From Chryseobacterium daecheongense (GTDB lineage Bacteria; Bacteroidota; Bacteroidia; Flavobacteriales; Weeksellaceae): DNA of 64,000 nucleotides. The position numbers were made by a program, and so were the translations under genes. Below the pieces are notes generated by a model that was not told where the DNA came from, ran no database searches, and saw only the letters and a program-made list of their open reading frames with translations. The stretch covers positions 1,798,001 through 1,862,000 of the forward strand of contig CP115858.1 of the NCBI GenBank assembly GCA_027920525.1, read 5' to 3'. Positions 61,546 to 63,860 of the stretch are shown here, in pieces (position 1 is the first letter of the stretch; every line of letters begins with the position of its first letter).

Positions 61546-62337
61546 ATGCAGACACAAAAAGTAATTGATCATATTGTAAGCTGGTTAAAAAATTACGCAG
61601 AAAAATCAAAAGTAAACGGATATGTGATTGGAGTATCGGGAGGTGTTGACTCCGGAGTAGTATCAACACTAGCAGCTATGACCGGTCTGAAGACTTTATT
61701 AATAGAAATGCCGATCCGTCAGAAAGAAGATCAGGTAAATCGTGCATGGGAGCACATGAATGATCTTAAGTCAAGATTTCCTAATGTAGAAGCCATGTCT
61801 GTTAATCTGACTCCTGCTTTTGAAGAACTGTACAAGACTTTCGATGTAAAGGATGATTTGTATCCGAATGAAAAATTAGCTTTTGCCAATACAAGGTCAC
61901 GTTTGCGTATGCTTACCTTATATTATTATGGACAGCTTAACGGCTTATTGGTTTGTGGAACCGGAAATAAGGTCGAGGATTTCGGAATCGGATTTTACAC
62001 CAAATATGGAGACGGAGGTGTTGATGTTTCCCCTATTGCAGACCTTTATAAAACAGAAGTTTATACACTTGCAAGAGCCTTGAACCTTGTTAAAAATATC
62101 CAGGAAGCCATTCCTACAGATGGACTTTGGGATGTAGAAAGAACTGACGAGCAACAAATTGGTGCCACCTATCCGGAACTTGAAAAGATCCAGAAGGAAT
62201 ATGGTTCTAAAACTGCAGAAGATTATGAGGGACGTGATCGCGAGGTATTCTTAATATTTGACAGAATGCATAAAGCAGCCCAGCATAAAATGAATCCTAT
62301 TCCTGTTTGTGATATTCCTGAAGAATGGAGATCATAA
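61546..62337 (+). CDS. nadE: NAD(+) synthase
   Basis: This enzyme amidates nicotinate adenine dinucleotide to NAD, the last step of synthesis. The 263-residue, ammonia-dependent form lacks the glutaminase domain. The PP-loop is GVSGGVDSGVVST, followed by the substrate segments NTRSRLRMLTLYYYGQ, GTGNKVEDFGIGFYTKYGDG, SPIADLYKTEVY and PTDGLW. It is the last gene before the barnase locus, 75 bases downstream of which the ribonuclease gene begins. Confidence 0.97.
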   Translation: MQTQKVIDHIVSWLKNYAEKSKVNGYVIGVSGGVDSGVVSTLAAMTGLKTLLIEMPIRQKEDQVNRAWEHMNDLKSRFPNVEAMSVNLTPAFEELYKTFDVKDDLYPNEKLAFANTRSRLRMLTLYYYGQLNGLLVCGTGNKVEDFGIGFYTKYGDGGVDVSPIADLYKTEVYTLARALNLVKNIQEAIPTDGLWDVERTDEQQIGATYPELEKIQKEYGSKTAEDYEGRDREVFLIFDRMHKAAQHKMNPIPVCDIPEEWRS

Positions 62338-62412: not shown

Positions 62413-62895
62413 ATGAATAGTAAAATGAGACCCGTATTTTTTGCCTGCATCGGCCTTCTGTTTGGAATGTTCGTGATGTATATTTTCAATAAGTTTTCTG
62501 GTACAGAAAAAGATATTCAGAATCCAAAAGCTGAATACAACACAACTGCCGGTACAGCAAATCAACAATCTATCGATCAGCTTACCGCAGAAAAAACGGT
62601 AATGATTTATGTAAAGGAACATCATCAGTTACCTGATTATTACATTACAAAAAATGAAGCCAGAAAGCTTGGCTGGAATCCTTCGAAGGGAAATCTTTGC
62701 GATGTTCTCCCCGGACGTGCCATAGGAGGAGACCGCTTCGGAAACAGAGAAAGAAGTCTTCCGCAAGGGAATCAATACTATGAAGCTGATGTAAATTACA
62801 GTTGTGGAAGTAGAAATGCCGACCGCATTATTTTCACAAAAGATGGGGATGTATATCTTACCAAAAATCATTATAAAAGTTTTGAAAAACAGTAG
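62413..62895 (+). CDS. Membrane-anchored barnase-family ribonuclease
   Basis: The 160-residue product has an N-terminal membrane anchor (about 7-25) and a polar linker to residue 55. The C-terminal ~105 residues align along their length with Bacillus barnase: LPDYYITKNEARKLGWNPSK, GGDRFGNRE, YYEADVNY, SRNADRII and LTKNHYKSF. Catalytic residues are present: Glu124 (barnase Glu73), Arg134 (Arg83), Arg138 (Arg87), His153 (His102) and Lys80 (Lys27). Two cysteines absent in barnase, Cys96 and Cys131, could form a disulfide outside the cytoplasm. It is first of three overlapping genes ending with a barstar homologue. Confidence 0.93.
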   Translation: MNSKMRPVFFACIGLLFGMFVMYIFNKFSGTEKDIQNPKAEYNTTAGTANQQSIDQLTAEKTVMIYVKEHHQLPDYYITKNEARKLGWNPSKGNLCDVLPGRAIGGDRFGNRERSLPQGNQYYEADVNYSCGSRNADRIIFTKDGDVYLTKNHYKSFEKQ

Positions 62896-63502
62896 CTGCT
62901 TAATCAGTATTCTGATGCTGATGCTTATTCTATTTTCCTGTTCAGATAAATCGCATAAGCTGACAATGGAAAATAAAGGATTGATAGTATTGGTTCAGCC
63001 ATTTAATGATTTAAAACCTGAAAGTGTAAAATTCGTAAGCAATGAGATCAGGAAAATATATCCGGATATAAAAATTCTGAATGCTATAGATTTACCGAAA
63101 GAGGCTTATTATCCGGAGAGAAAACGCTACAAGGCTGATTCTGTTATCAGATTTTTAAATAACAGAACCGACAGAGGTTATGTCACAATCGGCTTAACAT
63201 CAAAAGATATAAGCACCACTAAGGGTAAAATAAAAGACTTTGGTATAATGGGACTCGGTTATAGACCCGGAAAAGCATGCGTAGCATCAAATTTCAGATT
63301 AAATAAAGCAAAAGCTGATGAACAGCTTTTTAAAATTGCCATTCATGAACTTGGTCACACACAGGGATTGGAGCATTGCCCTGAAAAAACATGTTTTATG
63401 AGGAGCGCAGAAGGTAAAAATCCCACAGATGAAGAGGTGGATTTTTGCAAAAAATGCAAAGCCTTTTTAATAAATAAAAATTGGAAATTCAATTCAATAT
63501 GA
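62882..63502 (+). CDS. Archaemetzincin-type zinc protease, lipoprotein
   Basis: The TTG at 62882 gives a classic lipoprotein signal (LILFSC, Cys20), and the gene overlaps the barnase stop by 14 bases; later ATGs would remove the signal. The 206-residue product has the archaemetzincin signature: HELGHTQGLEH (155-165), Cys166, Cys171, Met173, and CKKC (189-192). The spacing before CxxC is 15 residues instead of the usual 17. Archaemetzincins are zinc proteases with a second, cysteine-bound zinc. The stop overlaps the barstar ATG (ATGA). A role in processing the ribonuclease is inferred from position. Confidence 0.9.
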   Translation: MKNSSCLISILMLMLILFSCSDKSHKLTMENKGLIVLVQPFNDLKPESVKFVSNEIRKIYPDIKILNAIDLPKEAYYPERKRYKADSVIRFLNNRTDRGYVTIGLTSKDISTTKGKIKDFGIMGLGYRPGKACVASNFRLNKAKADEQLFKIAIHELGHTQGLEHCPEKTCFMRSAEGKNPTDEEVDFCKKCKAFLINKNWKFNSI

Positions 63503-63807
63503 AAACAGTATATATAGATTTTACAGATATAGGAGATTATGAAGATTTCTATAGCCAGTTGAAAGAGAAAATCAGTCTTCCGGAACATTTTGGGGACAAT
63601 CTTGATGCCCTTTATGATGTTATTACGGGTGACCTGGAAATGCCTCTGCATCTTGAGTTTGTTAATTTAACGGTAGATCAGCTGGAATTATTTGAGGACC
63701 TGCTCACCACCCTGGAGGATGCAGAAGAAGAGCTTGAGGGTTTTACTTTCAGCTATTACCTGGAGCAGTATGAAGATGATGACGAAGAAGCTTCCGAAGA
63801 AGACTAA
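63499..63807 (+). CDS. Barstar-family ribonuclease inhibitor
   Basis: Barstar blocks barnase by plugging its active site. The 102-residue product aligns with barstar: LKEKISLPEHFGDNLDALYD, ITGDLEMPLHLEF and a helix with TTLEDAEEELEGF. Barnase-contacting Asp35 and Asp39 of barstar correspond to Asp36 and Asp40. The C-terminus is a 15-residue acidic extension (EDDDEEASEED) not found in barstar. No signal peptide: cytoplasmic. It shares ATGA with the metalloprotease gene. Confidence 0.93.
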   Translation: MKTVYIDFTDIGDYEDFYSQLKEKISLPEHFGDNLDALYDVITGDLEMPLHLEFVNLTVDQLELFEDLLTTLEDAEEELEGFTFSYYLEQYEDDDEEASEED

Positions 63808-63829: not shown

Positions 63830-63860
63830 AAAACTCGCAGATGTATCTGCGAGTTTTTTT
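63830..63860 (+). terminator. Terminator of the barnase-barstar operon
   Basis: AAACTCGCAGAT and ATCTGCGAGTTT form a 12-pair stem with a two-base loop, followed by T5. Also positioned for the convergent T9SS gene. Confidence 0.93.

Follow-up and report, generated by a model that had tools for sequence, protein, structure and literature searches.

Why would a protease gene lie between the genes for a ribonuclease and its inhibitor? The question is raised by three genes near the end of the window, which is the whole 64,000-nucleotide stretch of Chryseobacterium daecheongense DNA that was analyzed. An earlier note described them as encoding an anchored barnase, an archaemetzincin with a lipoprotein signal, and a protective barstar, with overlaps of 14 bases and ATGA, and proposed that the protease releases or activates the ribonuclease, or that the products form a weapon. 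The coordinates and frames agree with the gene order and with both overlaps. The locus carries the following features:

61546..62337, + strand: nadE, the upstream neighbor, 75 bases 5′ of the barnase gene (PF02540)
62413..62895, + strand: barnase-type ribonuclease, predicted to be membrane-anchored (ORF of 160 aa; PF00545, 1bne match, AF2 model)
62698..62700, + strand: Cys96 codon, at the position of barnase residue 43 (invariant in 124/124 barnases; aligns with a Cys of 1bne)
62803..62805, + strand: Cys131 codon, at the position of barnase residue 80 (invariant in 124/124 barnases; aligns with a Cys of 1bne)
62882..63502, + strand: lipoprotein archaemetzincin (M54) of 206 aa (TTG start, LFSC lipobox, HELGHTQGLEHC active-site motif, PF07998)
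63499..63807, + strand: barstar-type inhibitor of 102 aa (ATG start, PF01337, alignment)
63830..63857, no strand assigned: inverted repeat with flanking T/A runs, a likely terminator between convergent genes (terminator scan and sequence)

The three overlapping genes and their products

The barnase stop codon, TAG, occupies 62893-62895, so the overlap with the archaemetzincin frame is 14 bases; the archaemetzincin/barstar junction at 63499-63502 reads ATGA, a four-base overlap. The three genes probably form one operon. The terminator scanner reported the inverted repeat on the minus strand only, and inspection by eye of the sequence 5′ of the barnase gene revealed no Bacteroidota-type promoter. 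In most loci read, nadE adjoins the barnase gene. Near nadE in the window is gldB (PF25594; 59322-60308, minus strand), and in several relatives a gldB-sized gene and a 108-aa gene, presumably gldB and gldC, lie divergent beside nadE. The ribonuclease pair thus adjoins gliding-motility genes.

The ribonuclease matches PF00545 with 61.3 bits in a Pfam scan (cut-off 24), and a PDB search aligned it with the barnase structure 1bne across residues 63-159 (118 bits). In the AF2 model a helix (residues 6-29) is followed by a low-confidence stretch (30-50) and a confident RNase domain (about 51-160). PF00545 is the sole domain in the 160 residues, and there is no N-terminal trafficking or repeat domain. 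The equivalents of the barnase catalytic residues K27, R59, E73, R83, R87, and H102 are present here and invariant in all 124 distinct barnases compared (proteins longer than 130 aa; one shorter protein was left out). Judged by these residues, the ribonuclease is predicted to be active, and the inactive enzyme that the earlier note had allowed for is not what the residues indicate.

Two further residues, Cys96 and Cys131, share this invariance, and the domain has almost no other cysteine. In the alignment they fall exactly on the two cysteines of 1bne. Both are also present in 6pqk and 7mrx; all three entries outscore wild-type barnase in the PDB search. From the alignment and the barnase numbering, we take these entries to be A43C/S80C disulfide variants. 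The anchored, cysteine-paired barnase is in this respect a natural counterpart of the engineered disulfide enzyme. Two Firmicutes relatives lack the cysteine pair. A hydrophobic N-terminal segment is found in 121 of the 124 barnases, and together with the conserved cysteine pair it argues for export, which suggests that the barnase domain works outside the cytoplasm.

The archaemetzincin scores 36.6 bits against PF07998 (Pfam M54 cut-off 24.4) and falls below the cut-off of NCBIfam NF033823 (116.4 versus 145 bits). It matches 4axq and 3zvs by sequence and fold, with a model TM score of 0.89, by target, to 3zvs. The published archaemetzincin consensus is HEXXHXXGXXHCX4CXMX17CXXC (PMC3427221); the motif here, HELGHTQGLEHC-X4-CFM-X15-CKKC, fits it except that the spacer is 15 and not 17. 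In a set of 97 distinct archaemetzincins (92 linked to both partners, five to neither), the active-site motif is kept in 94, and 93 are longer than 185 aa. The strict lipobox pattern is met by 81 of the 97; most of the non-fitting proteins listed keep a cysteine after a hydrophobic stretch, and this cysteine is nearly invariant in the alignment. The residues CSEK or CSDK, common from the lipoprotein cysteine onward, do not fit the published surface export consensus, C-X-K-(D/E)2 or SDDFE (PMC5080379). For moderately diverged pairs, the median dN/dS is 0.105 for the archaemetzincin, 0.111 for the barnase, 0.077 for the barstar, and 0.062 for nadE.

The inhibitor matches PF01337 with 72 bits (cut-off 23.4). 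It carries D36 and D40, and among the 19 aligned barstars D40 is present in all and D36 in 17; in barstar, the two aspartates that plug the barnase active site are D35 and D39. No signal peptide was seen in the protein, and its acidic C-terminal tail has a variable end. The lack of an export signal fits the proposed role of the barstar as the likely protector of the producer. It is also the best conserved of the three proteins, with a mean column identity of 76% against 55% for the barnase and 50% for the archaemetzincin, the alignment rows differing among the three.

A fixed ribonuclease pair with an optional protease

A protein search found the barnase in 147 of 148 Chryseobacterium genomes, and the sole miss is a genome that is 73% complete. 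A PF00545 family search had pointed to a patchy ribonuclease (57/148 genomes); this picture was rejected as an undercount. PF01337 (barstar) is present in 148/148 genomes, and by coordinates every one of the 147 barnases is followed on its own strand by a barstar, within 1086 bases. Archaemetzincin sequence is found at 85 of these loci and is placed between barnase and barstar in 85/85; among the matches listed for the 148 genomes, no close copy lies anywhere else. The four-base archaemetzincin/barstar overlap fits the match coordinates in 71 of the 85 loci. At the barnase/archaemetzincin junction, 39 loci show overlapping matches, 26 have a gap of 0-110 bases, and 20 have a longer one.

The count of 85 takes in two remnants of 25-28 residues beside barstar (G096 and G108). 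Among the other 83, at least three are visibly damaged: G009 by stops, G105 by a split, and G087, where the match covers residues 114-205 only. The other flagged stops seem to fall at the match end, and frames that were read (e.g., G072, L059) are full length. Archaemetzincin matches occur in 105/148 genomes overall; the weak ones elsewhere share about 26-38% identity, usually within frames of about 290-350 aa, and were taken to be a different metzincin and not counted in the 85. Many genomes of the genus hold, among the matches listed, a second, larger metzincin-like protein elsewhere that is about 30% identical to the archaemetzincin (e.g., G008:C4:40416-40976 and G094:C1:1687110-1687694).

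The remaining 62 of the 147 loci have no counted archaemetzincin, and some hold remnants: 3′ remnants (E<0.001), one of them barely at this threshold, in six of 62 distinct protease-less loci document loss. On the barnase-barstar tree protease presence is patchy, with 39 changes against a mean of 48 and a minimum of 41 for shuffled labels; since the tree is short and noisy, the 39 changes should not be read as the number of losses. Most copies of the protease are intact and its sequence is conserved, yet it is dispensable, because it is missing in 62/147 loci while the barnase stays conserved.

The barnase has one orthologous place in 146 of the 147 genomes, the two matches in G063 being fragments of a single barnase. 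The exception is G134, whose additional barnase (L001:1321-1794, contig 14) starts with a lipoprotein-like segment; the 1.5 kb downstream of it contain no barstar. In several relatives a GIY-YIG nuclease gene lies between the barnase gene and the next gene. It was scanned as PF01541 at L133:4632-4940 and L148:4624-4932, and was recognized by eye in L114, L139, L143, and L144:3947-4343; in L144, inverted repeats (16 and 23 bases) flank it. This insert looks like a small mobile element splitting the operon; the genome to which the window belongs gave no match to an exact pattern of the element end.

A family-rank sample of 197 genomes from 33 genera gave the barnase in 160 genomes of 25 genera and the archaemetzincin in 49 genomes of 12 genera. 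Of the barnase-bearing genomes, 50 belong to Chryseobacterium and 110 to other genera; among the 50, the archaemetzincin is linked by coordinates in 30, and a further genome has a remnant. The barnase-archaemetzincin-barstar order recurs in 13 of the 110, spread over seven genera (L181-L193), and the other 97 have no linked archaemetzincin. In another five genomes of the family, an archaemetzincin (38-51% identity) is present and the stretch fetched contains no barnase. In genus g9, no nadE match lies beside the barnase at any of 14 loci, and the archaemetzincin is inside the pair in four, which are among the 13 above. Barstar was seen in 12 of the 14 and was absent within 1.5-1.8 kb downstream in L218 (G212) and L260 (G241); with L001, these loci indicate that, away from the genus locus, a barnase can lack a neighboring inhibitor.

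At order rank (246 genomes, with part of the first-look candidates scored in many of them), the barnase profile matched at least 37 genomes, all in the window's family. The archaemetzincin profile also matched at least 37, including 16 in other families, none of them among the barnase matches; at 11 of these 16 loci the neighboring frames were read by eye and none was barnase-like. The phylum-rank sample (257 genomes) gave only four barnase matches, all of the genus.

Collectively, the three-gene arrangement is real, recurrent, and optional in the window's family, and its recurrence across the genus makes it more than a product of chance. The search of relatives for co-occurrence and gene order that the earlier note had called for finds the same layout in 85/147 genus loci and in 13/110 genomes outside, so that the three families are linked in the genus and seven other genera and not in one genome only. 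Whether the protease is missing from most related barnase-barstar loci has a divided answer: within the genus it is present at most loci, whereas outside the genus it is linked at only a few.

The fixed place of the locus also bears on two readings in which the ribonuclease is a toxin. In the first, rival bacteria are the target of the ribonuclease, which may be delivered together with the protease, and the barstar confers immunity, a notion lent some color by the barnase-barstar cassettes known in polymorphic toxins (PMC3482391). One orthologous locus serves the 147/147 genomes with a match, no delivery domain accompanies PF00545, and none of the families in the PADLOC anti-phage defense models matches the three proteins. 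The single locus throughout the genus and the missing delivery domain leave the weapon suggested by the earlier note unsupported, and we consider it decidedly unlikely. The second reading, in which the genes serve as a toxin-antitoxin or abortive-infection module inside the cytoplasm of the producer itself, would account for a ribonuclease beside its own inhibitor in one probable operon. It is at odds with the hydrophobic N-terminus and the cysteine pair, which point outside the cytoplasm, with the fixed place in the genus, and with the PADLOC result. Moreover, a phage search with the protease, the only one of the pair of enzymes so searched, gave no match. We regard such a module as scarcely credible here.

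Possible roles of the protease

The explanation that we propose is an envelope ribonuclease module. The barnase catalytic domain would be tethered to the cytoplasmic membrane and work outside it, and the barstar would neutralize any barnase folding inside the cytoplasm. As an optional lipoprotein partner, the archaemetzincin would share the compartment of the barnase domain. Its likeliest task, and the weakest step of the proposal, might be to cut the floppy linker, thereby shedding or turning over the tethered ribonuclease. We give the whole statement, shedding included, a probability of about 0.35. The layout and the exported ribonuclease are very probable, and shedding by the archaemetzincin, taken separately, is doubtful.

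No conserved cleavage site was seen in the linker, with or without the protease, and the linker is highly variable; its length is no different with and without the protease (91 versus 31 proteins, p 0.23; 11 independent pairs were uninformative). Release of the ribonuclease by the protease, as the earlier note had it, is for these reasons possible and unproven. It is not supported so far, and it stays the leading idea for the protease. Further points against the proposed module are the 62/147 genus loci and the 97/110 genomes of other genera with no linked archaemetzincin, the three barnase stretches with no barstar close by, and the archaemetzincins of other families in barnase-free genomes, which indicate that the protein family has work without the barnase.

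A seemingly weaker constraint on the barnase where the protease is missing (median dN/dS 0.188 versus 0.111) was rejected with nadE as control. Within the genus, the dN/dS of nadE shifts alike (0.076 without the protease, 0.047 with it), and for the catalytic part of the barnase the difference is smaller (0.085 versus 0.069), so that a relaxed constraint on the barnase is not clear. Across 77 four-gene loci, barnase and archaemetzincin distances correlate with r 0.78, or 0.63 after allowing for nadE; the values for barnase and barstar are 0.50 and 0.31. The stronger correlation with the archaemetzincin could reflect linkage and co-inheritance, which fit as well as interaction does.

In a rival reading, neither enzyme acts on the other. 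The ribonuclease and the protease may both degrade RNA-protein material in the envelope as a source of nutrients, with the barstar only protecting the producer. A barnase that is present in 147/148 genus genomes and is under purifying selection suits such housekeeping, the protease is optional, and the constraint on the barnase looks independent of it. However, scavenging gives no reason for the invariable position of the genus protease, when there is one, between the other two genes; we consider it possible at well under even odds.

Inherited gene order would explain that position in another way. An independent lipoprotein archaemetzincin could have landed in the operon of an ancestor, to be kept by gene order and repeatedly lost, as the 3′ remnants and the patchy presence on the noisy tree would lead one to expect. 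Close relatives of the archaemetzincin also exist in barnase-free genomes of other Flavobacteriales (11 loci looked at). A passenger of this kind should not, however, still be under purifying selection, nor would one expect to meet it within the pair at another chromosomal site, as in genus g9, or to see no close copy elsewhere among the matches listed for the 148 genomes. Hitch-hiking is in our judgment rather unlikely.

Within the envelope ribonuclease module, a stronger version would make the archaemetzincin a dedicated sheddase that times the release of the membrane-bound barnase. This version is improbable; if it were true, it would be a new control layer on barnase-barstar and, to our knowledge, the first defined substrate and role for any bacterial archaemetzincin. 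An exported ribonuclease and its inhibitor as recurrent partners offer a concrete and cheap test of the role of a bacterial archaemetzincin, and the sister species that differ in having or lacking the protease at one locus are a ready-made natural experiment.

Comparison with known systems

Classical Bacillus barnase is a secreted form. According to PMC3482391, simple barnase-barstar pairs are widely distributed and without notable polymorphism. The locus here shares with these pairs, including those of Bacillus, the protein families, the toxin-first order, the catalytic residues, and the signal-less inhibitor. It differs in the membrane anchor, which looks uncleaved, in the cysteine pair, and in the protease gene that lies between the two in many relatives, an addition to the known simple pair. 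A pair in the gammaproteobacterium Proteus mirabilis (L280, a record labelled plasmid though it is 4.08 Mb) likewise has an N-terminal hydrophobic segment, the same two cysteines, and an adjacent, overlapping barstar (by one base; stop and start share an A), but no archaemetzincin lies between.

In a full-text literature search, no paper combined archaemetzincin and barstar, which is weak evidence as most subscription journals fall outside its scope; archaemetzincin with barnase gave only apparently unrelated work, and barstar with Chryseobacterium only a broad review. Of the biological importance of archaemetzincins "very little is known," and, as a point against the proposed module, the structures of an archaeal relative have occluded active sites, with no activity on a variety of substrates (PMC3427221). 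The protein here has in common with the M54 family and AfAmzA (3zvs/4axq) the fold, the HEXXHXXGXXHC motif, and four cysteines; its lipoprotein signal, its operon partners, and a score below the NCBIfam subfamily cut-off set it apart.

The nearest parallel for a metallopeptidase that accompanies a toxin is found in polymorphic toxins with barnase-like tips, where PVC-metallopeptidase domains are thought to release the toxins (PMC3482391). In those toxins, the peptidase domain is built into the toxin protein and has an HExxHxxQ-E motif, whereas at this locus it is a separate metzincin lipoprotein and the ribonuclease has no delivery domain.
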